Below are positions 18,167 to 39,862 of a stretch of DNA of 64,000 bases, piece after piece. A model generated the notes under the pieces. The model worked only from the letters and a program-made list of their open reading frames with translations, ran no database searches and was not told the DNA's origin. The stretch lies in NCBI GenBank assembly GCA_003963455.1, contig RXJA01000058.1:47946-111945 (forward strand), read 5' to 3'. Source of the stretch: Hyphomicrobiales bacterium. Lineage in GTDB: Bacteria > Pseudomonadota > Alphaproteobacteria > Rhizobiales > Rhizobiaceae. A program made the translations under genes and the position numbers. Numbering within the stretch: the first letter of the stretch is position 1; the number at the start of each line of letters is the position of its first letter.

Positions 18167-21100
18167 TTACCGGAGCTCGTGGATGGCCACGTTAGGGACA
18201 ACCGACTTCGCAATCTCGCACAGGTGTTGATGATGCGTGAGGTAGATCACCTGGCCCACATTTGCCATCTCACTGAACAGTCGGAAAACTTCCTCCGACC
18301 GGAGATGGTCAAAGGTTTCCATGATGTCATCAGCGATGAACGGAACAGACGGCCTGAGCTTGGCAAACTCGTAATATCCGGCAAGCCGTAGAGCCAGGTA
18401 GAGCTGAAAACGCGCGCCTTTCGACAGAGCGTCGGCGACCTTCGATTGGCCATCCCGCTGCGTGGCAATGAGCACCTCGCCGGCCTTTACAGGCTGGGTC
18501 GTCAAGCCTGTGTACTGGCGGCGCGTGATCAGGGCGAAGGCGTCGGACGCCTGGCTCATCATTCCGGACCGGTGACGTTCGCGGTAGACCCGTAGCGCGC
18601 TTTCTGCCGACATGACGCCGAGCTTCAACTCGATATAGCGGGCAGCCTTCTCCTCGATTTCGAGAAGAACCGTCCGGCGCTCCGCATCGATCCGGGCGAC
18701 CTGGCTGTCGCCGCCAATCGCATCGAGCTTGTCCGTCGCCCGGGCACGGCGGACGAGTTGCTGTTGTAGGGCTTCATCGAGGTCGGCGAGACGCCGCTCG
18801 ATTTCGGCCTTTTCCACTGCCAGCCCATCGAGATCGACGTTCTCCAGCAATGAGCGCGCCTGGGTGAAGTCATCCAGGGCAATCTCGCTCATCAATCGTT
18901 CTTCAAGCTCGGCCATTGCGCTCCGCAGGCCGTCTCGCTCGCGAAGCCGTTCATCGCGCTCAGCGACTTCGGGCAGAGTTTTCACCCCGAAAGTATCGAG
19001 CACTTGCTGCTTGGTTATTTCGTGTGCCGCGATCTCGGCGTTCAATGCCTTCTGAACGTCTTGCAACTTCTGAACATCAAGTAGGAGATTCGCCCTCGAC
19101 TCACGGGAACGATCAGCTTTTTCTAGGCGCTCGGTCAGCCTGGCGCTCACCTGTTCCGGCGCCTCCTCGTTTGATGGATCCACGGCCTGCGCACCAAGCC
19201 GAGCCACCTCTTCTGCAAAGCCAGTCCTGTCCGCCTCCATCTTGCCTATGCGGGTACGCATGGCCTCACGATCCTGCAGAGCCTTTGAGAGCTCCGAGAG
19301 CTGATCGAGCACGTTGCCAAGCCCGGTTCCGGCGATGCCGTCTTCGAGCCAGGTGCCCTTCAGCGTTTCATTGACCTCGGCCTGCCATGCAGCATCTCGC
19401 CGCTCGGCTATTTCAACAGCGAGCCGCCTGACGGCCAACTCCTCTTCCTTCGCAGCGACGCTTCTTAGCGCCTCCGCTCGTTCCGCATCGACCTTCGCCT
19501 GTCTGTCGAGAAAGCGGTCGGCGGAGACAACCATGGCGTCCAGAACCTCACCGGCTTCCGGCTGAATTCCAACGCTTCGAAGAGCCGAGGCCAGCCCGAG
19601 ACGGATCCGCTCTCCTTCGGCTGTCCCGCGTTCAATTCTTGCGCGTGCGAGCAGAATGTCGTCAAAGGCGCCAAGCGCGTCGGCGCGCGCGGACAGCCGC
19701 TCCTCCAGAAGTCCGATCAAAAGGTCGAGCGACTGCGCCTGGCAATCCTGAAGCAGGGCGCAGGCCATTTGCCCAATTTCAATTGCGGCCGTTTCAGCGC
19801 GCCTGTCCAGCTCGCCGAGCTGGGCACTGACGCGCTCTATCGCCGCTTCGGTTTCGGTCGCCTTTTGCTTGATTGCACGCAGGTCCGCGAGCTCGCCGGC
19901 ATGAGCCAGGCGCGCCGCGCCGACATGATCGTCCCAGGCCAGAGCTGCGGCAAACACGTGTGCGGTTTCGACCGTGAGGTCCAGCCGGTGATTTCGCCAG
20001 GCCTCGTCCCTATCACGGCGAATGGCTGCGGCTGTCTCATCGTCGGCGATGTCGGCCGACGCGCGGACAGCGGCCAGACGAGCCGACATCGAGATCCGGC
20101 TTTGTTCATGCTCGGCCAGACGGTCGGAATAGACTGCCCTGTCCCTTTGAAGGTCGGCGGCCAGCTTCTTCCAGGCAGCCATCTGCGTCGGCATTGGGAG
20201 AGACATCTTCGAAAGCGCCTCCGCATCTCTCGACCACGGCCGAAGGCGCCGCATCGCATCGGCCAGTCTTGTTTGCCGCTCGTCCTCGAATTCCCGCGCC
20301 TCTGCGATTTCGCGTTTGTGACCACTGGCCTTGGCTTCCGAGGAAGCTGCCATCAGCCTGGCTCTTGCGGGCTCGGGCACCGCCCTCTCCTCGCCAACGC
20401 GGCCTCGCGCCGCATTGAACCCATCAAGCGCGGCAGCGGCCTCATCGCGGGCCATCCGCAGGCTCGTCGTGATGCCGGAGCGCTGTTCGACCATGGTGCG
20501 AAGCGTGCCGACCACAACGGCCGGCAGGATGAGTCGGGGCGGATCCTGTTCGGCCGACCTTCCAAGCGCGGCGAGACAGTTTTCTACCGTCTGGTCGAGC
20601 AGTTGGACCTCCATCTTGCGGGTCGGCAGGTCCATGCCCGCGGATAGGTAGCGCGCCTTGCGGTCGGCAAGTCCTCGCACCTGCTCCGAGATCGCCAGCA
20701 CGGCTTCGTCGACCGCAATTGCCTCGATCTTTGCCTTTGCACGATCGATCTCATCGGCATTGGCCTGGAGACGGGTTCTTAAGCGTGCATCCTGATCGAT
20801 CAATTCCGCGACGCTGCCACTCCAGGTCCTGGCAGGAGACGGCATGTCCGGCAGGTCGGCCAGCCTGCTTGCCTTGCGTTTGACTTCGGCAAGGAGCGGT
20901 GCGGCGCGCGCATATCGCTCGATCGTGGCGAGCCGCGCCGACAACGCCGCGCGTTCGGCCAGGCTGCGGTCATACTTCTCCTGAGCCTCGGCCCGTTCCG
21001 TCTCGAGCGCCTCGAATGTCGAGGCCAGCGTGTCGATCGTCTCCTTGCGTGACTTGAGTTCCGCGAACCGTTTCTTCAGCAGCGCGATTTCGGTGGTTTG

Positions 21101-21637
21101 GGCTTGCTTTCGGTGAAGCCCATCTGCTTCTGTTTCCAACGCGGCCAAGACATCGCTGGCATGTCCGAGGCCAGCGCTGGCGGTGAAGAGAAGCTTGCCG
21201 AGATCGCCACGCGATTCAAGGATCGCCTTGCCGCCCGCTTCCAGCGTCTCGTCATCGAGCGAGAACATGCTGCTGTAGGTATCGCGTGACAAACCCGCGA
21301 GGTGCGCCGAAATGGCAATTTCGCTGAGTGGCCGGCCTTCGGCATCGTGCAGTGAGTTGCTGCGACTTTTGGTGCGCGAAACGGCAAGCGTCTGCCCCGC
21401 GAATTCGAGCAGCCCGCCGACGCGCATCGAGCTATAGTCGTGCAGGAAATTGTAGCGGCTGCGCTCTTCGATGCCGAAGAGCAGATCAAGGTACGCGGAA
21501 AGCGCGGTCGACTTGCCTGCCTCGTTCAGGCCGAAGACGATGTGAAAATCTGGGCCTGAAGCCGGCTTCTCTCCAAAGTCGATCGCGTTATCGGTGAACT
21601 TGCCGTAGCGGGTCAGGTCGAGGCGCCGCAATCTCAT
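18167..21637 (-). CDS. YhaN-like AAA/SMC-type ATPase (SbcC/RecN-like)
   Basis: 1156 aa; MRLRRLDLTRYGKFTDNAIDFG...FGLNEAGKSTALSAYLDLLFGI; long coiled coil; C-terminal PSVPFIADDIMETFDHLRSEEVFRLF. Confidence 0.85.
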   Translation of the reverse strand: MRLRRLDLTRYGKFTDNAIDFGEKPASGPDFHIVFGLNEAGKSTALSAYLDLLFGIEERSRYNFLHDYSSMRVGGLLEFAGQTLAVSRTKSRSNSLHDAEGRPLSEIAISAHLAGLSRDTYSSMFSLDDETLEAGGKAILESRGDLGKLLFTASAGLGHASDVLAALETEADGLHRKQAQTTEIALLKKRFAELKSRKETIDTLASTFEALETERAEAQEKYDRSLAERAALSARLATIERYARAAPLLAEVKRKASRLADLPDMPSPARTWSGSVAELIDQDARLRTRLQANADEIDRAKAKIEAIAVDEAVLAISEQVRGLADRKARYLSAGMDLPTRKMEVQLLDQTVENCLAALGRSAEQDPPRLILPAVVVGTLRTMVEQRSGITTSLRMARDEAAAALDGFNAARGRVGEERAVPEPARARLMAASSEAKASGHKREIAEAREFEDERQTRLADAMRRLRPWSRDAEALSKMSLPMPTQMAAWKKLAADLQRDRAVYSDRLAEHEQSRISMSARLAAVRASADIADDETAAAIRRDRDEAWRNHRLDLTVETAHVFAAALAWDDHVGAARLAHAGELADLRAIKQKATETEAAIERVSAQLGELDRRAETAAIEIGQMACALLQDCQAQSLDLLIGLLEERLSARADALGAFDDILLARARIERGTAEGERIRLGLASALRSVGIQPEAGEVLDAMVVSADRFLDRQAKVDAERAEALRSVAAKEEELAVRRLAVEIAERRDAAWQAEVNETLKGTWLEDGIAGTGLGNVLDQLSELSKALQDREAMRTRIGKMEADRTGFAEEVARLGAQAVDPSNEEAPEQVSARLTERLEKADRSRESRANLLLDVQKLQDVQKALNAEIAAHEITKQQVLDTFGVKTLPEVAERDERLRERDGLRSAMAELEERLMSEIALDDFTQARSLLENVDLDGLAVEKAEIERRLADLDEALQQQLVRRARATDKLDAIGGDSQVARIDAERRTVLLEIEEKAARYIELKLGVMSAESALRVYRERHRSGMMSQASDAFALITRRQYTGLTTQPVKAGEVLIATQRDGQSKVADALSKGARFQLYLALRLAGYYEFAKLRPSVPFIADDIMETFDHLRSEEVFRLFSEMANVGQVIYLTHHQHLCEIAKSVVPNVAIHELR

Positions 21638-22893
21638 CGCGTCGCACCTGCCTTGAGCCGGGCCGTGACTAGGTCAACGCTTCCGGCAAGCACATCGTCG
21701 AGAAATTGTTCGAACCCTGCTTCGTCCTTGCCGACGAAGCCCCGCGCATCGGGTGGCAGGTCCGCGATCGTCTTCAACACGAATTCGCGCGCTTCCAACC
21801 GAAATGCTTCTGATGCCGCATTGGCGCGCATGGACTGCGCGAGTTCCAAGGTAGGATCGGCGACATCTTCCAAGGCCCCGATAACGGAATCCGAAAGATC
21901 AAGCTCCAGCTTCTCCACCCAGGTGTTGCCCAACTGCTCCGCTGTCTGCCCGGCTTCTGCGAGCGCCAGGTCCCGGTCGCGCATCAGCGACCATGAAAGA
22001 GCGGAAGTGCCGACCAGGCGAAGGCGGGCAACAAGGTAGCGCGAGCTGGCGACCTCGCGGGCTTGTTCCAGCCCTGCTCGGACGCGGATAGCCGCCTCGC
22101 TCCATTCGGACGTCCCGGTCAGATCGACACTCACCCGCTCGAACTGCGCGACACTGGTGAGCCTCTCCTCGATCTCCACGGAGCGATCGTCAAGAATGGT
22201 GACCAGCGTGACCGATTTCTCGCCCGCCTCATTGATGTCCCTCCCTTGAGGAATCCCTGGCATCACGAGCGTGCTGGCGCCGGAATAGACCTGGCGAACG
22301 TGGATATGGCCAAGCGCCCAATAGTCAAAGCCGTGGCCGTGAAGATCGGCGACGCTGCAAGGTGCATAAACGTCATGGCCCGGGGAACCAGCCAGGCTCG
22401 TATGCATGATGCCGATGTTGGCATAGCCTTCCTGCGGAGCAGCATATTTGGGCAGCAGGCTTTCGGGCGCTTTGGGGCTGGCGAAGCTCAGTCCATGGAA
22501 CGCTACGTCTATCCCCGAGCCAGGCTGCACCACAGATTGGCAGCGGCCGCCAAAGATCGTCACCGTGTCTGGCAAGACGAGCTGCTTGGTAATCCGCGAC
22601 ATGGCGTCGTGATTGCCGCGGATCATGTAGACCCTGACGCCGGCTTGATGGAGGCGCGTCATTTGGGAGGCAAAAAAGCGTGCCGTTTTCATCGAGGTCT
22701 GGTCGCCGTCGTAAAGATCGCCGGCGATCACAAGCGCATCAACCTGCTCCGCTAGGCACAAATCCACGATGTCGATGAACGCCTGACGGCTGGCATCTCC
22801 GACCAGCTCGGCAAGCTCGGGATTGCGCAGCGCAAGCGAGCGCAACGGCGAGTCGAGATGGGCATCGGCCGTATGGATAAATCGAAATGCCAT
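21634..22893 (-). CDS. Metallophosphoesterase/DNA repair exonuclease (SbcD/YhaO-like)
   Basis: ATG at 22893: MAFRFIHTADAHLDSPLRSLALR...LVIAGDLYDGDQTS...VYMIRGNHDAMS; 4-nt overlap with 18167-21637 gene. Confidence 0.85.
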   Translation of the reverse strand: MAFRFIHTADAHLDSPLRSLALRNPELAELVGDASRQAFIDIVDLCLAEQVDALVIAGDLYDGDQTSMKTARFFASQMTRLHQAGVRVYMIRGNHDAMSRITKQLVLPDTVTIFGGRCQSVVQPGSGIDVAFHGLSFASPKAPESLLPKYAAPQEGYANIGIMHTSLAGSPGHDVYAPCSVADLHGHGFDYWALGHIHVRQVYSGASTLVMPGIPQGRDINEAGEKSVTLVTILDDRSVEIEERLTSVAQFERVSVDLTGTSEWSEAAIRVRAGLEQAREVASSRYLVARLRLVGTSALSWSLMRDRDLALAEAGQTAEQLGNTWVEKLELDLSDSVIGALEDVADPTLELAQSMRANAASEAFRLEAREFVLKTIADLPPDARGFVGKDEAGFEQFLDDVLAGSVDLVTARLKAGATR

Positions 22894-23685
22894 GCTTAGC
22901 GCTCCCGGACCCGAACACAAGCTCGGGCAGATGCCGGCACCAGAACGAAGGCGCTCGACCGTCACGATGAGCGGTCAAAAGACATCTTGGTTTCGGTAGC
23001 AAAGTCGGGCGACCTTCGGCAACAGTGGATGGGAAGGCTGTATGAGACGGTTCCTGATGAACGTCATGATGGCTGCCGGCGGCTATCTCTGGACTGTCAT
23101 TCCAGTCCAATGTCGCGACGGTTACATGGCCGCCTTAGAGCGCGCGAGTACCCGACTCGATATCGTTCCGTTCGCCCGCTAAGGGCTTCGGTTGGTTCCG
23201 CGAGTGTCGTGTAGGCGACGAGGCTCGTGGGCACCTTCCCCGAGATGAGCTTGGCGGTTGGGATGTCCGGAGCAACCTAGCCCAGAAAAAAGCAATCGAT
23301 GCAGCCGCTCGTGCCCTACAAAGCACGACGGAAAGCCAGGGACGCTGCTGGCGTGAACCGGAACGCATGGCAAGATTGCGCGCCTTGCTGACGCGATCAG
23401 CGGCTGCTCGACTGCACCCAACCGGCCGCCCACGCTCTGGGTGTCGGCATCTATATGGCGGGCTGGCTTTGGATTTCTCCGGCTGAAATCGATATAGGAA
23501 TCCGTTCCTATTTTATTCGCCAGAGTCCATACTGCTCCCGAAACTTTTTCGGGCCCCGCTACATCAAAGTTTACAGACAGCCTCATTGCGAAGGGCGTAT
23601 GTTAAGTCAGTCAGCGGCCACTTGTACGGGCATCGCTGCTGGGAGCGATCATCATTCTCTCGCCCGCCACCAAGGAGGCAGAGAG

Positions 23686-26365: not shown

Positions 26366-26500
26366 GCTGTTCACATACACGCAACAAATCATCACAAAGC
26401 AGAAGGATATTTGCGTTGCTCCGCCTGGTCCGACAGGCCACTATAGAGATTCGTGGTGTTTTCCAGCTATGCAGATGCAGTGGGCAGCCAGCCGTTGTTT

Positions 26501-27421
26501 ATGAAATCCAGCATCGATCATCTGCCGCCGCCAAAGCAGCGTGAGCTGACCAGGACGGTGGAGGTGCTGCTTGAGGAATTCGACGACGCGCTAAAGGGCG
26601 CAACGGCCGATTTCAAGAAGCGGGGCCGCATCCTGAAGATCATTCTCTTCGGGTCCTACGCCCGCGGCGGCTGGGTCGACGAGCCGCACACCAGGAAGGG
26701 CTACCGTTCCGATTTCGATCTCCTGATTGTCGTCAACAATCGAAAGCTGACCGATTTCGCCTCCTACTGGCAGGCAGCGGCCGACCGTTTGATGCGGGAG
26801 ATCGACACTCCAGTAAGCTTCATCGTGCACTCACGCCGCGAGGTGAACACCGCCCTGCATGAGGGGCAGTATTTCTTCGTCGATATCCGCCGTGATGGAA
26901 TAGTCCTCTATGAGCTGGACGACGAGCCGCTGACGATTCCAAAACCGTTGAACGCAAAGGAGGAGTACAAACTCGCGATAGGGCACTCCGTCCGCTTTCA
27001 AAGGGCCAGGAACAACCTTCTTCTGGCAAACACGGCTCAAGCAGCAAATATGCTCAACGACAGTGCGTTTCTTTTGCATCAGTCGATTGAGCATGCGTAT
27101 GCTGGATTGCTGCTCACCCTTACGAATTATTCTCCCCCTTCCCACAACATCAAATTTCTCCGCAGCCTCGCAGAGGACCAAGCCCATGAGCTTGCTGAGG
27201 TGTGGCCTCGTGACCAGCAACGCTTCGTTGCCTGGTTTAACATCATCAACGAAGCCTACGTGAAGGCACGGTACTCGCCTCATTTCGAGGTGACCCGTGA
27301 GGCCGTTATCTGGCTTTCTGATCGCGCTGGGGATTTGATCGATAGCACGGAGCGCATCTGCCGATCCCGACTTGAAAAGTTGAGAAACGAGGCGAATGCG
27401 CCAACTCATACCGCAGGTTAA
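26501..27421 (+). CDS. Nucleotidyltransferase (MNT) plus HEPN domain single-chain protein
   Basis: LKIILFGSYARGGWVDEPHTRKGYRSDFDLLIVV = NTase GSxxRG...DxD; C-terminal helical HEPN-like domain (LLHQSIEHAYAGLLLTLTNYSPPSHNIKFL...YVKARYSPHF). Confidence 0.75.
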   Translation: MKSSIDHLPPPKQRELTRTVEVLLEEFDDALKGATADFKKRGRILKIILFGSYARGGWVDEPHTRKGYRSDFDLLIVVNNRKLTDFASYWQAAADRLMREIDTPVSFIVHSRREVNTALHEGQYFFVDIRRDGIVLYELDDEPLTIPKPLNAKEEYKLAIGHSVRFQRARNNLLLANTAQAANMLNDSAFLLHQSIEHAYAGLLLTLTNYSPPSHNIKFLRSLAEDQAHELAEVWPRDQQRFVAWFNIINEAYVKARYSPHFEVTREAVIWLSDRAGDLIDSTERICRSRLEKLRNEANAPTHTAG

Positions 27422-27657: not shown

Positions 27658-29601
27658 TCAACGTCGCTTGCGGCCCGCTGGCGGGGTCGATCCGCGTTTG
27701 CGGTCCGCGTCGGCGATGACCGCGAACTTCGCGCCTAATGAAAAGCAATTCGCTCTAGCCGCTAGCAGGAGCGCATCGAGCTGCCGCACCCGGCGAACTG
27801 CGGCGCTGGTCTTATCGTCCTTGTTCATTTTCTCGCGGACGTTTTCTAAGACCGTTTCACGAACGCGCGGTTGTAGCACAACCACCTTTGTCTCCAGGTT
27901 TGATCCCAGCTTCGCAAGCATGGCGAGGAAGCTGTCTCTGTTCTTGAGCCGCTTGCCGTTGTGCCAGACGGCGTCCTTCAGCACTCCGCTGCCATTTGCT
28001 TTTAGCTTTGCCAGAAGCAACCCCCTATCGACGTGACGAAGGTTTTTGACAGCTTGTCCGACAACCACTTCATAGTCGGACACCGATATGTCCCGACCGT
28101 CCTTGCCCGAACCGCTGCCCTTGGCGTGAATAAGGGTCAGCAGCGAAGGTTTCACCTTATCGTCGATGTGGATGAAGTCTGCCGATTCACCAGCCCCGTC
28201 GTCACAAACAAGCCAGCCGGTCTGCTGGCCGCGGGACTTGAGATTCGGCCAGTGCCGAGCAATCAGGCCAAACAGGGACTTGTCGCTCTCATTGCCGGTG
28301 TTCTCCACGGCAAACCGCTTGCCGTCCAGCGGCTTCTCTTGCCAGTATTCCGTCTTGTCGGGCCACATCGGGACCCATTCCCAATCCTCAAATCTGGCAT
28401 CGCGAAACCTAGTCTCATAGATGTGACCGCGCGAGAATGTGTGGCCGGTGTCGAAGTAGACCGTTATGTTGTCGGCGTCCCGGCAGATTTTCAGGATCTC
28501 GGCTTTCTGCTTTTTCGAAACTTCACCTTCCACATCTTTGCTGCCCTGCTCCTTGACGATGGTTATTTTCGCTCGAACGTCGCCTCGCGGCCCCTGATGG
28601 AACTCGTAAGACAGGCGCCCTATCTTCGTATCGCCCCAGTAGACGTCAGCCTCGAAATTTGGGCCTCCTGCTGCCGCCGTCACTTCAAACCGCGCCGTAT
28701 CGCCAAACTGCTGCAGCCATCGCGATTCATCCTTGGCGGCGTCAGACTCCCCGTGGTGAATCTGTTCGGGCACGATGATGGCAACATCATAGGCGCGCTC
28801 GACGTTTGCCAGGCTGGTCAAGGGAGAAGCGACAATCGGGATCGGAGTCTCGGAACGAGAAGTATCGTCCATGTAGTCGGCCGCTCGGCGCAGGACCAGA
28901 TTAAGACCGGTCGTGAACTCGTCCCAGGTCCTGCTGGGACCGGTCCAGATCCTGCCGGCGCTTGGACTTGCGCCGACGACGGTGCTGGCAAGTTTTTCGG
29001 ACAGCTTAACCGTGCTGCGAACTGAACTGAAGAAATAGCTCTGATCTCCAAGCGGATCGAGTGACGACTCAAGCTCCAAGCCGGAAAGGATCTTTGAATC
29101 CGGTTTGATCGCGGTTCGGCGATGAGTACCCGTCAGCCAAAGCGTACGCACCCGGCCTTCAACAAAGGCCTTGTTGATCTCGGTTGGCGTCAAGCGGGTG
29201 ATCAAAGACAAGGGGCCGGCTGCGGCACTGGCGATCTTCTTTGCGATCGCACTTCTGAGCCCATTGTCGGAGAACGCCAGCGCAAAAAGTGTCTCACGCC
29301 TTGCCACGACGACCAGATGGTTGACCAGGTCCCTGAGATCTCCGTCGACGAGCCAGCTTGGCGGGCGCTCATCGACATAGCGTGTCCAAGCGATTGTGGT
29401 GCCATCCACCTCGACCGCCGTTCCTTGGGCATCGGGAAAGGCCAGGCTTGCCTTTTCCGCGGACTCCTTCGCCGCGTCCCGGATCGCAGCCAACAGCACC
29501 TCGGGCGCGGCGCCTGTCCCGCCGCTGACCTTGTAAAGCGAAACGGAAAGGTAGGGCGCACATTGTTCCTTGGAAACTGCCGTAGGAAGTCCGGGCATCA
29601 T
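27658..29601 (-). CDS. Large protein with C-terminal PD-(D/E)XK-like nuclease motif, partner of DUF2235 protein
   Basis: 647 aa; GWLVCDDGAGESADFIHIDDKVKPSLLTLIHAKGSGSGKDGRDISVSDYEVVVGQAVKN = D...hHAKG nuclease-like core; ATGA overlap with upstream gene. Confidence 0.6.
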   Translation of the reverse strand: MMPGLPTAVSKEQCAPYLSVSLYKVSGGTGAAPEVLLAAIRDAAKESAEKASLAFPDAQGTAVEVDGTTIAWTRYVDERPPSWLVDGDLRDLVNHLVVVARRETLFALAFSDNGLRSAIAKKIASAAAGPLSLITRLTPTEINKAFVEGRVRTLWLTGTHRRTAIKPDSKILSGLELESSLDPLGDQSYFFSSVRSTVKLSEKLASTVVGASPSAGRIWTGPSRTWDEFTTGLNLVLRRAADYMDDTSRSETPIPIVASPLTSLANVERAYDVAIIVPEQIHHGESDAAKDESRWLQQFGDTARFEVTAAAGGPNFEADVYWGDTKIGRLSYEFHQGPRGDVRAKITIVKEQGSKDVEGEVSKKQKAEILKICRDADNITVYFDTGHTFSRGHIYETRFRDARFEDWEWVPMWPDKTEYWQEKPLDGKRFAVENTGNESDKSLFGLIARHWPNLKSRGQQTGWLVCDDGAGESADFIHIDDKVKPSLLTLIHAKGSGSGKDGRDISVSDYEVVVGQAVKNLRHVDRGLLLAKLKANGSGVLKDAVWHNGKRLKNRDSFLAMLAKLGSNLETKVVVLQPRVRETVLENVREKMNKDDKTSAAVRRVRQLDALLLAARANCFSLGAKFAVIADADRKRGSTPPAGRKRR

Positions 29602-30758
29602 TGGACAATCTCGTATCTGGGTGGGAGATTTTGCGGCTGATAGGTCTTCACCAAAGCCATTCGGTCAAGGACCGATTGGTGGAGTTGCGCGCCATCGGGG
29701 ATAAGACGCGGCTCGCATCGCGGCAGATAGACGCCAAGGATTGAGCGGCGCCCTGGCCATTCACGTCGCCGTGCGCTTTTGGGTAGCCACTCCAGGATGC
29801 GCCAAGCACCTGTTGCCGACGGATGAAGATGTGCGCCAGGGTCAGGAGCTACGTATATGTGTTCGCCGCCTTTGGTCGGCTTTCCTTCCACCAGGTGACC
29901 GACTATGGTCGCGCCCACCTTAAGCCCGCAGGCGACGGCCTCATCGATTATCCATCGCAGAGGAAATTTCGACAGACCACTCTCTTCTTCGCTGAAGCCG
30001 CCTCCTACATCTGAATGGCAACCGGCAAACCAGACTTGTCGAGCATCCTGCTTGGGAGGATCCGATGTCGAAAAACGGTCAGGTCGGAATAATTGTCCCT
30101 CTTTCCAGATCTGCAGGCGAAACATACGCCTGCATTCGTCGATGGCGATGGCTTGCCGAAACGTCTCAACGCCGGGATTCTGGAGTGTATAGGGAAGCGC
30201 CTGCAAACTCGGAACATAAAAGCGGTCGGGACGAGGAACGATGACGGAAGCCACCGTCTCCCAAACACCGACGAATCGGATAGGCACCATCCTACCGCCA
30301 ACGATTCGGCGAAAATGCCATGCCACCGATAGATCCTCATGGTCCATAGCGGCGCGCTTGTACGCCGCGAAGGCGTATCCGACATAATTCAGTTGATCAG
30401 GTCGTAGCAGGCCTAGAAGGAAGATGAACCCTGCCAATACCCGCACGCTGTAGGCACCTCGGCTGAAGCCGAAAAGATAGATGCTGTCGCCCTCGGCGTA
30501 GTGAGTTGCCAGGAAGCGATAGGCTTCCAGCACGTCACTGTCCAAGCCGTATCCTGTAGCCAGACCCAAAACGCCCTTGGCATTCTGGCTGATGCGGCCC
30601 CAGGTCGCTGTTTGACCCAAGGTCCCGACGCCGGGATCGTAGTAGGCAACCTGCAGGTCATTTTTCTCAAGCGCCCTGTAGAGCTTAAGCACATTTGACA
30701 TGTTCACGCCAATTTCGTTGCCCGTTCCGTCACAACAGACAACAATATTCTTCGGCAT
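29598..30758 (-). CDS. DUF2235 family alpha/beta-hydrolase (T6SS Tle1-like phospholipase domain)
   Basis: 386 aa; MPKNIVVCCDGTGNEIG, YYDPGVGT, SIYLFGFSRGAYSVRVLAGFI nucleophile elbow, VWFAGCHSDVGGG. Confidence 0.85.
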   Translation of the reverse strand: MPKNIVVCCDGTGNEIGVNMSNVLKLYRALEKNDLQVAYYDPGVGTLGQTATWGRISQNAKGVLGLATGYGLDSDVLEAYRFLATHYAEGDSIYLFGFSRGAYSVRVLAGFIFLLGLLRPDQLNYVGYAFAAYKRAAMDHEDLSVAWHFRRIVGGRMVPIRFVGVWETVASVIVPRPDRFYVPSLQALPYTLQNPGVETFRQAIAIDECRRMFRLQIWKEGQLFRPDRFSTSDPPKQDARQVWFAGCHSDVGGGFSEEESGLSKFPLRWIIDEAVACGLKVGATIVGHLVEGKPTKGGEHIYVAPDPGAHLHPSATGAWRILEWLPKSARRREWPGRRSILGVYLPRCEPRLIPDGAQLHQSVLDRMALVKTYQPQNLPPRYEIVQ

Positions 30759-30941: not shown

Positions 30942-32966
30942 CTAGCTTAGCTTTTGCAGGATGTAGCCTGGAAAGATGACCCGTTCGCAGTCGATTCTGG
31001 CGATTATCCCTTCGAGCGTTTCCAAGTCTTCGCTGGTTGAGAAAATGACCTGCTGATTGCGTTTCTTGGCGCGAGCAGCCCGAGCCAAGAGATTCTGAAA
31101 ACTTGGTCGAGATGATGACTGTTGACGCGGCTCGTCGAATACCAGCATCCCTGGGTGGTTGGTTTGCTTCCCGGTCGCAAGTTCGAGCAGACTTAGCTGG
31201 TAGGCCCACTTCAGTCTGATAGCGTCGCTCGCGGACGTTTCGAAGCCGATCTCGAACCCCTCTTTCTCGGGCCTATAGCTATCTTCCGAAATCGACAGCT
31301 CAGAGGGGGAGAACGTGCTGAAACCAAAATCCTTTGCCTGGCTCTGCACAAGCCCCGTTAGGAGAGTTAGTTTGTCCCGGTCGCGCTGAGACAGCTTTTC
31401 ATTCGGAATCTCCGCAAGCTCTTGCAGAAGTTTTCCGTATGCGTCCTGCAAAGTGCCAAGCCGGTCTAGGGCTTCTTCAAATACCGCCTGCAAGGCCTCG
31501 AGGTCCCGCATCCGTGCCTCAGCTCGGATGCGCTCTTCAATGATAGCTGCGGATGGGTTTGATCCTGGCGCTACCAATTCTGACCGAAGAAGCCGGATTT
31601 GGGAGTAGTAATCAATTAGATTGCGGCTCACTGCCGAGAGCTGATCTCGCCGCGCACTGTCCTCCGCCTCTTCTCTGACCAGGATATCCTCGAACATTTT
31701 TTTTTGCGACCGAATATACTCTATGTTGTCGGAGACTGGCATGACCGCAGAAACCGCTTCCTGAGACAGCAGTATGTCAACGAGCGCCTGTTCACAGGTT
31801 GGACATCTATCGGGAGTCAACGCAGCGGTGACACCTGAGTAGCGCTGCAATCTTTGAACATCGAGATTTTTCTGCAGATCGTCATCGAGAACGATGATCC
31901 GCCGCTGTAGTGACTGCATGTCGGCCAGCTTCAGCTGCTGGATGCCATGGATTCGTATTCGCTCGGCGTTTAGCTGGTCGACCTGTTGCGTAATCAGCTG
32001 AAGCCGTTGCGCCACTTCTTCCGAGTGTTCCTCTACCATTGGCACCGCTTTGGCGGCCATCTCAGCGATACTCGCTCTGAGTTGTGTGACGATGGCTCCC
32101 AGCGGCAGCCATTCGGTCCCCTCAACGATCTGTACATGAGCGTTCGACAATGCAGCGGGATCCGCGACAGGGCTTTCGCTCAATGCCGCGACCCGTCCAC
32201 CTCCCCGCGCAACGAATCGGTCGAGCTCTTGTCTGATGACAGACCACTCTTTTGAATTCGCTGCGATGCGTTCGGCGAGACGCTCTCGCTGTACCTCAAG
32301 TTTGTAGACGTCGAGGTCCATGATAAACTCGACCGCTCGCTTATGAACCTCTCGAATTCTCATATACGTTGGAATCGCAGCCGGCACCGCCGTCCAGCCA
32401 AACTTCTGCTCAACCCAGAACAACGGAAAGACGGTTTCCAGATACAGTTTTGTCTCTGGCGCGTCGTACCTTCTGACTTGCGGCAGTCGCCATCCTAAAA
32501 AGCCTTCAAGGAAGTGATGAAATCCGTCTTCTCGCTGGGCCGCACCAGGATCCAAAACGAAGAAGTTTTGCTGCTTGAGCCCCGTTGCTCCTTCCGAAAG
32601 CGCAGGTCCGAAATCAACCGTGACAAGGCGCGTGTCGGTGCTCGCCTTCACTGCGCGATTTACGGATATGACCTGCCCGTCTCCGTTTTCGATCTCCAGG
32701 GACACACTCGATTCGAGAACCTCGATACGTTTATCGTCGTCGGTGTTCAGGTAGGTCGTCATGGCGTGCGGTAAAGGGATTTCGCGCCGTGGGCTCAGCA
32801 TCCGCTCCAACCCAAGAGCATACAGCATGCCCTGCATGCAGGTAGACTTTCCCTTCGTGTTATCGGCCCACAGCACGGTCAGACCGGAGGCGAAGGGAAC
32901 ATCAGCGCCATATACGCCATCGGACGTTACCGCCCGAAGTCTCAGGCGTCGAAAGCGCAGCGTCAC
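30942..32966 (-). CDS. RecF/SMC-type ABC ATPase of ABC-three-component-like conflict system
   Basis: Start placed at GTG 32966 (VTLRFRRLRLRAVTSDGVYGADVPFASGLTVLWADNTKGKSTCMQGMLYALGLE); zinc-hook-like CPTCEQ in coiled coil; C-terminal MLVFDEPRQQ; GTGA overlap with upstream gene. Confidence 0.75.
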   Translation of the reverse strand: MTLRFRRLRLRAVTSDGVYGADVPFASGLTVLWADNTKGKSTCMQGMLYALGLERMLSPRREIPLPHAMTTYLNTDDDKRIEVLESSVSLEIENGDGQVISVNRAVKASTDTRLVTVDFGPALSEGATGLKQQNFFVLDPGAAQREDGFHHFLEGFLGWRLPQVRRYDAPETKLYLETVFPLFWVEQKFGWTAVPAAIPTYMRIREVHKRAVEFIMDLDVYKLEVQRERLAERIAANSKEWSVIRQELDRFVARGGGRVAALSESPVADPAALSNAHVQIVEGTEWLPLGAIVTQLRASIAEMAAKAVPMVEEHSEEVAQRLQLITQQVDQLNAERIRIHGIQQLKLADMQSLQRRIIVLDDDLQKNLDVQRLQRYSGVTAALTPDRCPTCEQALVDILLSQEAVSAVMPVSDNIEYIRSQKKMFEDILVREEAEDSARRDQLSAVSRNLIDYYSQIRLLRSELVAPGSNPSAAIIEERIRAEARMRDLEALQAVFEEALDRLGTLQDAYGKLLQELAEIPNEKLSQRDRDKLTLLTGLVQSQAKDFGFSTFSPSELSISEDSYRPEKEGFEIGFETSASDAIRLKWAYQLSLLELATGKQTNHPGMLVFDEPRQQSSSRPSFQNLLARAARAKKRNQQVIFSTSEDLETLEGIIARIDCERVIFPGYILQKLS

Positions 32967-33451
32967 AGGAGATCCTCCAGTCGCCAAACGCGCTTCATCA
33001 GCGCATCCGTTACTCGAGGTGCCACCTCGTTCAAGAACCGAGCTTCCTCCGTCAACGACTCCCCTTCCTCCAAGATTGCCTTGGCCATTTTCGCCCCCGC
33101 ATCGGTGAGAGACACTGACGTTCCCTTGTCAATCTTCACCAGCTTTAGAGCATGTGCGAAGGCTACGGCGCGGTTGAGTGACGGCTCTACGCGGACGGAA
33201 ACCTCCGTTGCCCGATATTTCCCAGCCAGTAGACCGCGAACTTCCTCACGACCCTCTGGCAGCCGGACGGAGTGAGCCAGAAACTGTAATTTCTGAAAGT
33301 TGGATTTCTTGCCGCGGCTGTGGAACAGCGCCAAGATAAGCACAGCCATGCCCCATGACATGCGTAGGTCGCCAGGAACGGGATCAGGACGCGCTATGTA
33401 GGTGAATGAGCCGCCCAATATAGCGTTGCGAAGGCTTGACTCACTGGGCAT
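32963..33451 (-). CDS. Small middle-component-like protein of ABC-three-component-like system
   Basis: ATG 33451: MPSESSLRNAILGGSFTYIARPDPVPGDLRMSWGMAVLILALFHSRGKKSNFQKLQFLAHSVRLPEGREEV...; overlaps both neighbouring genes. Confidence 0.6.
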   Translation of the reverse strand: MPSESSLRNAILGGSFTYIARPDPVPGDLRMSWGMAVLILALFHSRGKKSNFQKLQFLAHSVRLPEGREEVRGLLAGKYRATEVSVRVEPSLNRAVAFAHALKLVKIDKGTSVSLTDAGAKMAKAILEEGESLTEEARFLNEVAPRVTDALMKRVWRLEDLL

Positions 33452-34358
33452 TGGGGAAATCCAGAGGACAACGCATGATCCACTCACAGATCGAGCCATA
33501 GGCAATTTGTTCGGCATTCTCAGCGGAAAGACTCGGTGCTGCCGCTTGCATTGCCGAGATTAGCGCATCGAGTTCCGCATGGAGTATTTCTCCCGCCGAT
33601 CCACCTCGCTGCGGTCCTGCAAATTGTAAACGCCGAGCTCGGCTCCTAATTGCAGACATGACCTTCTCATGAAGGTCGGGCGAACCAGACCGCAAGGCGT
33701 CGAGTAAGGCGTTACCCGTGAGAAAGGATTTCACTGCTTCACCCACGACAGCGTCAAGTTCGTCGGGGTTGGCCCGCTTCTTGAGTTTCTGCGTAGCGTT
33801 AGCCAAAAGGTTGGACGAGCCGGCTACCCAGGTAGCAAGTTCCGACTGGGAGGGAGTAGGGATGGACAAGGTCACCTTCGAGAGGGCTGACATGCCCATG
33901 GCCACGGCGTCGCCGGGGAAAGCACTCGGATCTTGGATCATCACCTCAATTTCCGCATCCAGCGCTACGCAACCCGCACCTCGCAGATCCTTCGTCTTTT
34001 TCGCACAGTGAAGATTGACTTCTTTGCTGTCATGGAGGGGCGCTATCAAAACCCAATGCCTGATAGGAACTTCGTGAAACATTTTCGCGACTTCGGCATG
34101 GTTTTTTAGAAGCTTCCCGAGATCAATCGTTATCTTCTTCTTCTGGCGTTCTGCCCGAGTTGCAATATCTATAGGCTCTTCGACCGCATAACATTGGTAC
34201 GCGACCGACTCCTTTGTGCAATAGTAGTCTATTCCGTAATCCCCTTTGTGTTCCGCCGGGATCTTCTGCACGTGTAGCGGACCATGTCGGCCTTGAAGGA
34301 GGCTGAGAGCGAAAAGCTCCCAATCGTCTGGGTTCCAGACTTGAACAGCACTCGACAT
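33441..34358 (-). CDS. Effector-like component of ABC-three-component-like system, Mrr-like N-terminal domain
   Basis: MSSAVQVWNPDDWELFALSLLQGRHGPLHVQKIPAEHKGDYGIDYYCTKESVAYQCYAVEEP; GDYGID...YQC restriction-endonuclease-fold signature. Confidence 0.6.
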   Translation of the reverse strand: MSSAVQVWNPDDWELFALSLLQGRHGPLHVQKIPAEHKGDYGIDYYCTKESVAYQCYAVEEPIDIATRAERQKKKITIDLGKLLKNHAEVAKMFHEVPIRHWVLIAPLHDSKEVNLHCAKKTKDLRGAGCVALDAEIEVMIQDPSAFPGDAVAMGMSALSKVTLSIPTPSQSELATWVAGSSNLLANATQKLKKRANPDELDAVVGEAVKSFLTGNALLDALRSGSPDLHEKVMSAIRSRARRLQFAGPQRGGSAGEILHAELDALISAMQAAAPSLSAENAEQIAYGSICEWIMRCPLDFPNAQ

Positions 34359-34641
34359 CTTGAATGTTACCCCCCGAGGCAGCAATCTTACCGCCTAAAC
34401 GCCACAATTCAATACCGAGGCATATTAGTAGTTCGCCCCATTGCGGTTCCCTTGGTTTCGCTCCTGGCCTCTGGTCTGACGCACGCAATTTCTGAGAACG
34501 AGCTTGATGATCATTTGCGAATGGACCTCAAACGCCCACGAGCTTTGTCCAGTGCAGCGAGCCTGAACCGGCGCCGACCGGATGTTCCGATGTCTATCCC
34601 AAGTCATCTATTCGTCAGAGACGTTGGCGGCATCGTCTCCG

Positions 34642-35301
34642 TTAACAAAAGTTCGGGCGATGAAATCCTTCGCCAACAACCTCTCTTTCGAGAGCAGCCC
34701 GGCATCCTGCCTCGAAATCCGGCAGCTGGCGCAGCGTGTCGAGCCCGAACTGCGACAGGAAATTTTTGGTCGTCACATAGGTGTAGGGTGCCCCCGGCTG
34801 CGGGCTGCGCGGCCCCGAGGCGATGAGGTCCTGCGCGCGCAGCACGCCGATCAGGTCGCGCGACACCTCTTTGCCAAAGAAGCTCGATAGCTCGCCACGC
34901 GTGATCGGCTGGAAATAGGCGATGCACATCAGCACGAGCGCCTCCGACTGCGTCAGCTCTTTTGCCCCCTCGCCCGTGGCACTTCCGAAGGCGGCGTTGA
35001 TGGCGTCGCCAAAGACCTTTTTGGTTCGGTGCTGCCAGCCGCCTGCGACCGAGACCAGTTCGTAGGGGCGGCCGGCGAGCTCGGCGCGAATGTCGTCGAT
35101 GACCAAATCGAGATTGCAGTTTCTTCCCACTACCCGCACCAGCACCTCGCGCGGCACAGGCTCGCTGGCGGCAAAGATCACCGCTTCGACGCGGCCCATC
35201 CATTCGCGCCAGCGCAGTTCTGGCGGCAGGTGCTCGAGCTCGGTGTCGAGCAGCGCCGGCTGATCGTCTGGCTTGCGGCGAACGGAGGCTTGGCTCATCA
35301 C
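34642..35301 (-). CDS. ScpB-family protein (ICE-encoded paralog)
   Basis: 219 aa; RVEAVIFAASEPVPREVLVRVV, TQSEALVLMCIAYFQPITRGELSSFFGKEVSRDLIGVLRAQDLIASGPR, PYTYVTTKNFLSQFGLDTLRQLPD. Confidence 0.85.
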   Translation of the reverse strand: MMSQASVRRKPDDQPALLDTELEHLPPELRWREWMGRVEAVIFAASEPVPREVLVRVVGRNCNLDLVIDDIRAELAGRPYELVSVAGGWQHRTKKVFGDAINAAFGSATGEGAKELTQSEALVLMCIAYFQPITRGELSSFFGKEVSRDLIGVLRAQDLIASGPRSPQPGAPYTYVTTKNFLSQFGLDTLRQLPDFEAGCRAALEREVVGEGFHRPNFC

Positions 35302-36254
35302 TACAGCCCAAACAGCCGAAAGGTGGTGCGGCCCGATAGCTCGCGCACGGCCTCGAGTTGTTGCAGCCGTTCGAACAGCCGTCGCGCCGCGAAACGCGAC
35401 AGGTTTTTCGTCGTCAGCGAACCGGAGACGACGTCTTCGTTAAGCAGCAGAAAAATCACATCGCCGGCGCCCTTGGCGCGCAGCTTTGGCGCCACCCCCA
35501 GGAGCCTTTCGGCGCGACGTGACAACTCGGCGGCCAGCCGGCAGGCGCCGGCCGCCGCCTGAACCAGCGCGACGCAGACCGCGCGCTCAAAACCTTTTTC
35601 GCCCGGTCGGACGCGGGTGCCGCCGCCGTCGGTGCGGAAGGCCGGGCCAAAAGCCTGCGTCATCAACAGCGGCAGCGACCGCGGCCAGCGCAGGCTTTGC
35701 GCCAGCACCAGGTCGGCCAGCCACCAGGCCAAAAGCTCGGAGTCGGGCCGCATGGCGATGACGCGGGCGGCGATTGCTGCCGCGGCGAACGGCGCTGGTC
35801 GGCCACCGCGGACTTGGTCGTCGATCGCCGCGCACAGGTCGGCGAGAGCCTCTTTGTCCCAAGCGAGCCCGAGCAACTCGACCAACTTCGCCAGCCGTTC
35901 GACGCCGGCGGTGGGCGGCTGCAACGCCAGATGCCGCCAGGCGCCAAAAATGGCGCCGGCGGGACCGGGGTCGGCGCCGGCCGGACGCAGATGCCAGGCG
36001 TCGCGCAACGCACCTTCCTCCTCGGCGCGGCCGGCGATCCGCATGCTGGCGGCCGCGCAGCTGAGCGCCAGCCGCTGGCGCCAGGCGCCGGCCCAGGCAG
36101 GCTGCGCGCGAGCAAGCGGGTCGAGCGCGCCCAAGGCGGCGCCGGCCTGGAAGGCGGCGTCGGCGTCGCTCGGCACACCATTGACGGCGAGCGCCCAGGC
36201 CGGAACGGTCGGCGGCGTGGCGGGGCTGGTGGTCGCGGGATCGAGGCGAATCAT
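35301..36254 (-). CDS. DUF1403 family protein
   Basis: 317 aa Ala-rich; AGAALGALDPLARAQPAWAGAWRQRLALSCAAASMRIAGRAEEEGALRDAWHLRP; sits between ScpB-like and relaxase genes as in alphaproteobacterial ICEs. Confidence 0.7.
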   Translation of the reverse strand: MIRLDPATTSPATPPTVPAWALAVNGVPSDADAAFQAGAALGALDPLARAQPAWAGAWRQRLALSCAAASMRIAGRAEEEGALRDAWHLRPAGADPGPAGAIFGAWRHLALQPPTAGVERLAKLVELLGLAWDKEALADLCAAIDDQVRGGRPAPFAAAAIAARVIAMRPDSELLAWWLADLVLAQSLRWPRSLPLLMTQAFGPAFRTDGGGTRVRPGEKGFERAVCVALVQAAAGACRLAAELSRRAERLLGVAPKLRAKGAGDVIFLLLNEDVVSGSLTTKNLSRFAARRLFERLQQLEAVRELSGRTTFRLFGL

Positions 36255-36461
36255 GATTTCGAGGGTAAAATGGCCGTGCGCTTTCCGCCATCAATTTCGC
36301 CCCGAAACGCACAGCCTGTCGCGCGCCTAAAAGGAATGATAATGTTGCCCTATCAGTCGTTTACCTCACCATAGACTCTGATCTATTTGGATTAGGCGGC
36401 TAACTATTGTCGGTGATTGCGACCTCTTGGACCAACGCCGGCAGCGCCTCATGCGATCAGG

Positions 36462-38429
36462 TCACGAAACACTCGGCCCGCTCCTTTGCCGACCGATGGT
36501 CCAAGAAATCCCCTCCCTGCCCACGACTCCGGAGACCTCCTTTCCGACATGTCGGTCAAGCACTGGCCGCCACGGCACGAGAGTGAACTCACGCGATTTC
36601 TCAATGACGGCGTATTTCCCGCTGGCGAGTTCGACCGATCGGACCATCTTTCCTTCCAGCCGACCCCCAGGCTTTGCTTCGAAATAGGCGAGCCCAAGCT
36701 CCTCCGAGAGCTGGCCGGCAATCCGGTTCAACTCCCGCTGACGCAGGATGGAAATCATGCCAGCGCGATAGACGACCCGGTCCTGCTCCTCATGCGCGAG
36801 TCCTTGCGCAATGAGCCACTGCTGCCGTCGGGTTTGCGCTTCCCGCACCTCGCGGCCAAAGCCTGCGTCGCGCAAGGCCGTCGGTTGATTGGAAACCAGC
36901 TCCCGGTCCAGCCAGGTGGCGCCGTCGAAACCGACCTGCTTCTCCAGGGGAATTGGCGACAGCTTGTCGAGGACAACGGGCTCGGCCCTCGCCCGCTGAC
37001 GCTCATAGTGCGCAACCCGCTCCAGATGGTCTGGCGCAATGATCCAGGTGCCGTCCGGCTCCCGCTCGACGCCGCCCGTTGCGCGTCGGATCGCCTCCAG
37101 CCGCCGGACATGGGTTTCAGCAAAGCGTTCGGTAGCGGAAGTGTCCTGCCTCAGATGAATATCGACATTGTAGCGCCCGGCATTGGCCGCGGAGATGTCG
37201 GCGACAGTGCGGTCGATCTGCCTGGGTTCCGTGCTCCGCGGCGTGACACGGACGATACAGCCGTCGGGCGTCGGTTCAGTGGCCTCGCCTTTGCCGATGT
37301 CAATGTAATGGCTTTTGCCGTCCACGCCGTCGACGATGAGATAGTGCCGGTCTTGGATTTCGTCTGCCAGCCCGCGCGCGACCACGCTGCCGACGACAGG
37401 CTCGGCATTCTGTCCTGCGTCGTGGACGAGCACGTCGGCGGCACTGCGCGCGAGTCCCTTGCTGGTCAGTTCGCGATGCATGGTCTTGATGATATCACCG
37501 CGCACGCCCAACCGACGCAACGTTGCTTCGAGTTCATCGTCCAGGCGCCAGCGGCCCGAGCCGATCTCCGCAGCAAGACCCATCCGCTCGAGCTTGCGCA
37601 GACGGCCCTGATGCAACGTCTGGCGAAACGCGTCGCGGGCATCTGCCGAGACAAACCCATCCTCGTCCCGCATACGTAGCAGCTGCCGGTCGATGCTGGT
37701 GAAGCGTTCCTGCTCCATCTCCCGACGCAGGCGCTGCTCGATCTCGCGATCGCTGCGGGGACCGAGGTCCAGACTCACGAGCTCGGACGCGCGCTCACGC
37801 AAACCAGAGGAGATGTAGTCCCGAGCGATGACGAGATTCTCGCCGCGGTCGTCCTTTCCCCGAACGATGATGTGCGTATGCGGATGGCCCGTATTGAAAT
37901 GATCGACGGCAACCCAATCGAGCCTGGTGCCGAGGTCCTCTTCCATCTGCGCCATGAGGCGCCGGGTCAGTGGCTTGAGGTCGTCATACTCGATGCCGTC
38001 TTCGGCGGCGACGATGAAACGGAACTGATGCCGATCGCCATCGGCACGATCGATGAACGCCTTGCCATCGACGCGGTCACTGTCGGCGCCGTAGAGGTCG
38101 CCGGGCTCACCTTGCCGAGTGACGCCATCGCGCTGGAGATAGCGCAGGTGCGCACGCGCTCCGTCGACACCCTTGCCCGCCAGCTTGACCACTCGCGCCT
38201 TGACCACAACCCGTCGCTGTCGGAAGGCGGCGTAGCGATCGCGTGATTTCAGCAGGGCGGCCGCAGCCCCGCCGCGCCCCATGCGGCTGCCGGTGAAGCG
38301 GCCGCCACGCGCGGCCTTGCCGCCGGCGCGGTTGATCGCGACGCGGAGCTGACCGGCATAGCGTTTGCCGTCCTTCGAGCCGCGCGACCCAATTTTGCCG
38401 AGCCTCGGCCTGAATTCGTCATCCTGCAT
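36462..38429 (-). CDS. DUF3363/RlxS-type relaxase (VirD2-like)
   Basis: ATG 38429: MQDDEFRPRLGKIGSRG...; DHFNTGHPHTHIIVRGKDDRGENLVIARDYISSGLRERASELVSLDLGPRSDREI. Confidence 0.9.
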   Translation of the reverse strand: MQDDEFRPRLGKIGSRGSKDGKRYAGQLRVAINRAGGKAARGGRFTGSRMGRGGAAAALLKSRDRYAAFRQRRVVVKARVVKLAGKGVDGARAHLRYLQRDGVTRQGEPGDLYGADSDRVDGKAFIDRADGDRHQFRFIVAAEDGIEYDDLKPLTRRLMAQMEEDLGTRLDWVAVDHFNTGHPHTHIIVRGKDDRGENLVIARDYISSGLRERASELVSLDLGPRSDREIEQRLRREMEQERFTSIDRQLLRMRDEDGFVSADARDAFRQTLHQGRLRKLERMGLAAEIGSGRWRLDDELEATLRRLGVRGDIIKTMHRELTSKGLARSAADVLVHDAGQNAEPVVGSVVARGLADEIQDRHYLIVDGVDGKSHYIDIGKGEATEPTPDGCIVRVTPRSTEPRQIDRTVADISAANAGRYNVDIHLRQDTSATERFAETHVRRLEAIRRATGGVEREPDGTWIIAPDHLERVAHYERQRARAEPVVLDKLSPIPLEKQVGFDGATWLDRELVSNQPTALRDAGFGREVREAQTRRQQWLIAQGLAHEEQDRVVYRAGMISILRQRELNRIAGQLSEELGLAYFEAKPGGRLEGKMVRSVELASGKYAVIEKSREFTLVPWRPVLDRHVGKEVSGVVGREGISWTIGRQRSGPSVS

Positions 38430-38639
38430 CAGAGCCTCTTGCCGGTACCAAGCCAAATCAACGGCTTGCGTGAGATAACCTCCAGCCGCTCGAGGGAGCC
38501 TCCTTGGAAAACGATGTGCAGACAAGGACTTAGCCGCCTCCCGGAGGCGGTGCCTTTATCTTGCCTTCGCCAACCCGGCCCTCCGCCCCGCCCCGGTTCA
38601 CACTTCCGCCCCCGCCCCAGTCCAAACGAACGCATGCCC

Positions 38640-39326: not shown

Positions 39327-39862
39327 AGCGGCACGAGCCTCCCGACGATGTTTTCGGCCGGCACCGGCCCGAAATACCGGCTGTCGAAGGAATCGGGAGC
39401 CGCGCCGTTGATCAGGAAAACCTTGTCGCTGGCAAGCGGCCGGCATTCGTTCCACCACGGCAACCGGCGGCCCTTGCTGTCAGTCTTGAGGCGGCGCGCG
39501 GCGATCTTGCCGCCGATGATGATCGCATCATTGAAGGCGCAGACATGCTCGCCCGGGAGTGCCGCGACGCGCTTCACCAGCGGCACGCCGCGCGGCAGAT
39601 AGCCGCGCTGGTCGGCGAGCTGGCCAATCATTTTCGGCATGCGCACAAGCACGAAATCGCCGGTGCGCGCCGCGCCCCGGCCGAGGCGATAGAGTCCAAC
39701 CGGCGCGCTTGCCGAGGCATTCCAGACCAGCAACGGGACCGGTTTGGCGAAGGCGGTGATCAAGATCAGGCCAAGGCCGATGCTCGCGGCGGCAAGCATC
39801 TTGCGCGCGCGAACGCGCCGCAAGCCGCCGCCGATCAGGTGCAGGGAAGGCCGCGCCATCAT
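39314..39862 (-). CDS. traF: S26 family signal peptidase (TraF-like conjugal transfer protease)
   Basis: 182 aa; WNASASAPVGLYRL, LVKRVAALPGEHVC, VFLINGAAPDSFDSRYFGPVPAENIVGRLVPLW. Confidence 0.85.
   Translation of the reverse strand: MMARPSLHLIGGGLRRVRARKMLAAASIGLGLILITAFAKPVPLLVWNASASAPVGLYRLGRGAARTGDFVLVRMPKMIGQLADQRGYLPRGVPLVKRVAALPGEHVCAFNDAIIIGGKIAARRLKTDSKGRRLPWWNECRPLASDKVFLINGAAPDSFDSRYFGPVPAENIVGRLVPLWTE

Follow-up and report, generated by a model that had tools for sequence, protein, structure and literature searches.

Here we describe two adjoining genes that may form a small defence module, a candidate nuclease accompanied by an exchangeable hydrolase, within a mobile defence island; we favour this reading tentatively. 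The genes lie in a 64,000-nucleotide stretch of DNA from a Hyphomicrobiales bacterium (GenBank assembly GCA_003963455.1, contig RXJA01000058.1, positions 47,946 to 111,945; hereafter the window), where the first encodes a DUF2235 hydrolase of 386 amino acids (aa) and the second a 647-aa protein with a nuclease-like core near its C-terminus. A defence role for the pair is likely, judging from its context and from the kinship of the 647-aa protein with PDC-S71, a listed defence candidate, and functional cooperation between hydrolase and nuclease is a more doubtful proposition. The features of the pair are these:

29598-30758 (-): DUF2235 / Tle1-like alpha/beta hydrolase, 386 aa (PF09994, E 9.8e-77, full profile)
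30462-30464 (-): nucleophile Ser99 of the motif GFSRGA, invariant in 54/54 DUF2235 homologues
29598-29601 (-): ATGA stop/start overlap of the two genes, read from the sequence
27658-29601 (-): 647-aa protein, an N-terminal region and a C-terminal PD-(D/E)XK-like domain (PDC-S71 match, aligned relatives)
27862-28224 (-): conserved nuclease-like core, about residues 460-580 (profile matches in PDC-S71 proteins and superfamily 2 (SF2) helicases)
28177-28203 (-): DDGAGESAD motif, residues 467-475 (D468, E472, A474 and D475 invariant)
28120-28128 (-): HxK motif, residues 492-494, at the (E/D/Q)xK position of PD-(D/E)XK enzymes (invariant)

An earlier sequence-only reading of this DNA had proposed both open reading frames and their overlap, and all three were confirmed: the plus-strand tcat at 29598-29601 is a coding-strand ATGA, which holds the TGA stop of the DUF2235 gene and the ATG start of the 647-aa gene. 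Each gene occurs once in the window's genome, and scans of the locus for sigma-70 promoters and terminators gave no more matches than shuffled sequence.

Recurrence of the pair and exchange of partners

A DUF2235 gene directly followed by a 647-type gene was found in about nine loci: the window, Mesorhizobium CU3 (L002), Rhizobium CCGE510 (L003), Agrobacterium plasmids (L005, L006, L119), Phaeobacter plasmids (L007), Rhizobium sp. Khangiran2 (L118) and, as a remnant, Shinella (L066). A separate pair of DUF2235 and PDC-S71 occurs in two further genomes (L058, L059), with gaps of -4 and +3 bp. The genes are therefore recurrent neighbours, on which the original proposal of a two-gene system depended, but the pairing is not exclusive, because some 647-type genes lack a DUF2235 neighbour, and DUF2235 also accompanies Septu, the cyclic oligonucleotide-based antiphage signalling system (CBASS) and PDC-S71.

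The variety of these associations is considerable. In one apparent operon (L058:6914-11874) the order is CBASS cyclase, NucC, DUF2235 and PDC-S71, with gaps of 32, 16 and -4 bp, while L105 has cyclase, NucC and DUF2235 (genes assigned by clustering with those of L058) and L059 has DUF2235 and then PDC-S71. At four loci (L014, L015, L016, L064) DUF2235 is followed by the Septu genes PtuA-PtuB, called by scanning in L016 and by clustering with L016 in the other three. A CBASS operon (CapH/CapP-type genes, Cap5) precedes DUF2235 in L003, L005 and L016, with a Cap5-DUF2235 gap of about 100 bp. Two of these loci, L005 and L016, share 90.2% DNA identity over 5951 bp through CBASS and DUF2235, ending at the 3' end of DUF2235, beyond which one carries a 647-type gene and the other PtuAB; their DUF2235 proteins are sisters in the DUF2235 tree (99/94). 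In the same tree, the proteins with 647-type, Septu and PDC-S71 partners each fail to form a single clade. Because the identity of L005 and L016 stops where DUF2235 ends and the partner groups are not monophyletic, we conclude that DUF2235 changes partners; and since the same type of hydrolase adjoins CBASS, Septu and PDC-S71, it appears to be an exchangeable accessory rather than a fixed half of the pair.

The surroundings of the genes were compared between two DUF2235 lineages. Within 5 kb of clade-A DUF2235 genes we found CBASS cyclases, CapP, Cap5 and Septu proteins, and around 22 genes of the second lineage, clade B, mostly restriction-modification matches in single members. This control covered clade B apart from L015, L064 and L097 (which carry Septu genes), L106, L107 and some neighbours of other loci, and because five loci were set aside, the contrast between the clades is one of degree: most, not all, clade-B genes are free of defence genes.

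Other DUF2235 and 647-type genes keep different company. Clade-B genes (e.g. L067, L068, L074, L081, L082, L084) stand in many genomes of the family beside a conserved gene of about 1160-1190 aa, which looks SMC-like by size alone, and these loci are apparently chromosomal and not defence-linked. On a Bradyrhizobium plasmid (L100:6046-9806) a more distant DUF2235 gene is followed after 8 bp by a caspase-family gene and then by a 503-aa gene. A three-gene unit with -4 bp overlaps (L101:3117-7086, L103:2940-7086) encodes a family-less protein, a metallo-beta-lactamase-fold-like protein (428 aa) and a distant DUF2235. In Roseibium (L008:4798-8881) a PhoD-like phosphatase gene and a 251-aa gene, for which no known family was matched, occupy the place of DUF2235 before the 647-type gene, and a CBASS operon follows.

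The DUF2235 hydrolase

Membership of DUF2235, and the GFSRGA nucleophile elbow pointed out in the sequence-only reading, are well founded: PF09994 matches at 258.5 bits (cut-off 27) across the whole profile (1-287/287), and both GxSxG and GxHxD motifs are present, S99, H248 and D250 being invariant in 54/54 homologues. Proteins of this kind have been described as lipid-acting alpha/beta hydrolase toxin domains with a GxHxD motif (PMC3482391) and, in Aeromonas, as a phospholipase of the type VI secretion system (T6SS), encoded in a locus shared with DUF4123, immunity and VgrG genes (PMC7245790). A phage origin of the pair was considered and ruled out, as no match was found in phage records; phage and viral collections held no close DUF2235 homologue and no relatives of the pair.

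A nuclease-like core in the 647-aa protein

The 647-aa protein matched no family in Pfam, NCBIfam or PHROGs; in PADLOC it gave one match, to the candidate PDC-S71, over residues 459-526 (E 1.1e-9). The stretch CDDGAGESADFIHID...LTLIHAKG, in which the sequence-only reading had seen a resemblance to nuclease cores of conflict proteins, is present at residues 466-495. In a full-length alignment of 13 sequences (17-76% identity to the window copy), the residues invariant in all 13 include D467, D468, E472, A474, D475, H492, K494, Q516, K519 and N520, and eight of these (D468, E472, A474, D475, H492, K494, Q516, K519; window numbering) remain invariant across 20 diverse cores, a set that includes six SF2 helicases with the domain at their C-terminus.

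When the C-terminal region was used as a profile, it detected this domain in PDC-S71 proteins and, at the C-terminal end, in SF2 helicases of about 1000-1150 aa. Such ResIII-type helicases ending in the 647-type core were seen in L087, L088, L097, L103, L015 and L003:9990-13412, and in L097 a distance of 12 bp separates the end of the helicase gene from the DUF2235 gene that follows.

The core follows the residue pattern of PD-(D/E)XK enzymes, with HxK replacing (E/D)xK: in the 20 sequences there are acidic residues at D468, E472 and D475, then H492-x-K494, then Q516xxK519 on the next helix. The predicted order of elements (helix 443-450, strands 461-467, 473-480 and 487-494, helix 507-521, strand 570-576) is one that fits the alpha-beta-beta-beta-alpha-beta core of that fold. 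Structure models were too weak to name a fold, both for the whole protein (predicted local distance difference test, pLDDT, 37.5, from a four-sequence alignment) and for the C-terminal domain (pLDDT 55.8, predicted template modelling score 0.57). A Foldseek search of the low-confidence model against PDB gave no match at E < 0.001, and the profile of the core, searched against PDB, met armadillo-repeat proteins only. Since the models are poor and no PDB neighbour is significant, we infer, rather than observe, a PD-(D/E)XK fold for this core. Of the nuclease resemblance first proposed, then, the conserved residues, the sharing with helicases and the PDC-S71 match stand, and the structure models speak neither for nor against the fold; the core is likely a nuclease.

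Four other likenesses were set aside. The top Foldseek match, Cap4 (6vm6; E 0.17, probability 0.12), is not used as evidence; the armadillo-repeat matches are repeat-driven chance; a match to AP_endonuc_2 under the cut-off (E 0.013) is likewise put down to chance; and a phospholipase-D (HKD) reading of HAKG is ruled out, since conservation extends neither to the D nor to the remainder of the HKD motif.

The N-terminal 400 residues hold conserved motifs of their own, e.g. KPDSKxLSGxELExxLDPLGDQxY. This half is weakly similar, in collinear order, to the N-terminal part of PDC-S71 (probability 8.7%, E 0.0038), which we treat as a hint; no similarity to Cap5 (HNH-SAVED) was found, nor any relative of the region beyond the weak PDC-S71 likeness.

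Points against the reading, and alternatives

Several observations weigh against a two-gene defence module. Translational coupling had been proposed from the overlap, which is real but private to one lineage: among the relatives, ATGA is common to the window and Mesorhizobium sp. CU3 only, is not kept outside Mesorhizobium, and gives way to spacings of about 60-70 bp in the other 647-type pairs. In several carriers the pair is disrupted (by an insertion sequence element in L005; also in L006 and L066). The 647-type gene occurs without DUF2235 in close relatives from Ruegeria (L004, near a contig end), Roseibium (L008) and Sinorhizobium medicae (L120, a shortened copy) and in more distant ones (L009-L012, L086); PDC-S71 does so in L114, L116 and L117; and DUF2235 is found alone (L055) or beside other systems. 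Residue 167 of the hydrolase (GVWDT; 30258-30260 (-)), likely the catalytic acid because of its spacing, is D in 53/54 homologues and E only in the window copy. To these are added the poor structure models and the want of a significant PDB match by sequence or fold.

One alternative is that two independent defence genes merely travel together, the 647-aa protein being a single-gene nuclease defence like PDC-S71 and DUF2235 a separate occupant of the same islands, an explanation that we consider possible though on balance unlikely. It accords with the occurrence of each gene without the other, with the end of L005/L016 homology at the 3' end of DUF2235 and the different genes beyond, with the usual 60-70 bp spacing, and with PADLOC's listing of PDC-S71 as a single-gene candidate, which is presumably what the 'S' in its name denotes. 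Yet DUF2235 lies directly upstream of a 647-type or PDC-S71 gene, on the same strand, at three or more places on the DUF2235 tree, and the core family stands beside DUF2235 far more often than the genome background provides. A core-domain protein was found within about 6 kb of 6/51 DUF2235 loci that had been collected without use of the 647-aa protein (among the six is L066, itself a remnant of the 647 pair), and the core domain was found anywhere at all in 3/41 related genomes, the window's own included. The association is far above random placement, and island clustering of defence genes could produce part of it.

Alternatively, DUF2235 might be an accessory or second effector of whichever system lies upstream, which is Lamassu for the window and CBASS for the plasmids of Agrobacterium and Rhizobium, and precede the 647-type gene by chance. 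Cyclase-NucC-DUF2235 in L058 and L105, Cap5-DUF2235 in L003, L005 and L016, the 90%-identical CBASS-DUF2235 block with different downstream genes in L005 and L016, and the 183 bp that separate LmuB from DUF2235, on the same strand, in the window all fit this view. It is nonetheless improbable, as what lies upstream differs from locus to locus (Lamassu, one of several CBASS types, or no system), the 647 pair of L002 is without any, and in both the window and L002 the gap to the upstream system exceeds the gap to the downstream gene.

A third view holds the C-terminal core to be a structural or binding domain, derived from PD-(D/E)XK or another fold, rather than an active nuclease. The missing Pfam and PDB matches, the low-confidence models and the lack of a known member with measured activity would suit it, but the acidic, HxK and QxxK residues are invariant down to about 17-20% identity, helicase fusions included, and the predicted secondary-structure order fits PD-(D/E)XK, so that we regard it as very unlikely. 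Least probable of all is that DUF2235 acts as a Tle1 lipase delivered by the T6SS, with no relation to the 647-aa protein. PF09994 is indeed the Tle1 catalytic family and two TssK (PF05936) pieces lie on two other contigs of the genome, but at 386 aa the protein is little beyond a catalytic domain, and its neighbours in the window, unlike those of the Tle1 locus of PMC7245790, were not seen to include vgrG, PAAR, a DUF4123 chaperone or an immunity gene. Its relatives are located in defence islands on plasmids, beside which no T6SS genes are annotated, and the protein has no close homologue in phage or viral collections. The earlier statement that the window has no T6SS gene holds for the examined parts of it; because of the TssK pieces, the statement applies to the window and not to the genome.

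A proposed mode of action

In the two-gene module that we tentatively favour, the 647-aa protein would be the core component, its N-terminal region presumably sensing infection and controlling the C-terminal PD-(D/E)XK-type nuclease, which would cut phage or cell nucleic acid. DUF2235 would be a modular Tle1-like ester hydrolase, added upstream and made together with the nuclease, and would most likely serve as a further lethal activity, directed at the membrane lipid of the infected cell, when the defence fires. Such a response might amount to abortive infection, as the sequence-only reading had supposed.

The defence island

The surroundings of the pair bear out the earlier suggestion of a defence island. 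A complete-looking Lamassu system of overlapping genes, LmuA-LmuC-LmuB (30942-34385), which had not been named in that reading, lies directly upstream of DUF2235 on the same strand:

30942-32987 (-): LmuB of Lamassu (PADLOC LmuB, E 2.6e-103)
32963-33517 (-): LmuC of Lamassu (PADLOC LmuC, E 6.7e-19)
33441-34385 (-): LmuA of Lamassu (PADLOC LmuA, E 8.1e-28)

On the 3' side, on the opposite strand, are a HEPN-nucleotidyltransferase fusion and a HipA gene. The fusion (26453-27421 (+)) is a single 322-aa protein, MNT-HEPN-like, with the nucleotidyltransferase in front and HEPN behind; MNT and HEPN are normally encoded by two genes. It gave a marginal Cyclase score only (PADLOC E 0.045), and among the genes that surround the pair neither an oligonucleotide cyclase (CD-NTase) nor a SAVED gene was found. 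Beyond LmuA, at 34642-39862 (-), are ScpB-like, DUF1403, DUF3363 (relaxase-type), SLT transglycosylase and S26 peptidase genes, which suggest a conjugative element carrying the island. Given Lamassu, HEPN-MNT, HipA and the conjugative-type genes, we therefore assign the pair to a defence island that is probably carried by a mobile element. Elsewhere in the window (18167-22965 (-)), the reading frames of an SbcC-like AAA_27 ATPase (1156 aa) and a 443-aa metallophosphoesterase overlap by 4 bases, making up an SbcCD/YhaON-like pair.

Significance

Neither the hydrolase DUF2235 nor PDC-S71, which PADLOC lists as a defence candidate, is new in itself; the novelty lies in the 647 family, as a variant, and in its association with DUF2235. 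In the DUF2235 literature that we searched, largely without subscription papers and preprints, these enzymes appear as weapons against other cells, through the T6SS or as polymorphic-toxin domains, and no title or abstract treats DUF2235 as part of antiviral immunity. One DUF2235-naming paper there, a T6SS pangenome study, also contains 'phage defense'; none of the DUF2235 papers searched contains CBASS, and no paper in the whole literature searched contains both Tle1 and CBASS.

A wider proposal, which goes further and which we rate as possible though on balance unlikely, is that this DUF2235 clade is an immune part of several unrelated systems (CBASS with Cap5 or NucC, Septu, PDC-S71 and the 647 type), adding a membrane-directed killing arm to nuclease-based immunity, and that the 647-aa protein founds a previously unrecognised family of nucleases, the core of which SF2 helicases also carry as a fusion. 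Should the defence-island clade indeed be an immune part exchanged between systems, it would link two fields and explain a recurrent, so far unexplained neighbour of CBASS and Septu operons, while the core shared by 647-type, PDC-S71 and helicase proteins would represent a nuclease domain that Pfam lacks, and many of its members would await annotation.

Comparison with known systems

In the window the pair has Lamassu directly upstream; Thioclava (L116) has Lamassu ahead of PDC-S71, and Rhizobium sp. Khangiran2 (L118) carries it next to the pair but on the other strand. Adjoining the pairs of L003 and L007, no Lamassu gene was found. The window's Lamassu has an LmuA of its own, and the pair is neither LmuA nor LmuB.

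The window DUF2235 resembles Tle1 (Tox-AB hydrolase 1, PF09994) in its full catalytic domain and its GxSxG and GxHxD motifs. It differs in its defence-island context, its length of 386 aa, E167 and the lack of T6SS delivery or immunity genes seen nearby: where a T6SS Tle1 adjoins vgrG, PAAR or a chaperone and an immunity gene, the neighbours here are Lamassu, the 647 gene, HEPN-MNT and HipA.

Septu PtuA-PtuB elsewhere takes the place of the 647 gene directly 3' of DUF2235, but the 647-aa protein, with neither ATPase nor HNH, replaces PtuAB in position only. A same-clade DUF2235 directly follows CBASS operons with Cap5 (HNH-SAVED) or NucC in five loci; in contrast, the window pair has no cyclase or SAVED gene found beside it, and the 647 N-terminus is unlike Cap5.

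The closest likeness is to PDC-S71 (PADLOC-DB 2.0 candidate PDLC05077), for which no describing paper was found in the literature searched. The two agree in overall size, order, C-terminal core and identical invariant residues. The full-length PDC-S71 model, which matches the L058 protein throughout (1e-117), reaches the 647-aa protein at 459-526 only, and identity to PDC-S71 members is 17-19%. We take the 647-aa protein to represent a sister family, barely reached by the PDC-S71 model, and PDC-S71, in L058 and L059, stands directly 3' of a DUF2235 gene just as the 647-type gene does elsewhere.

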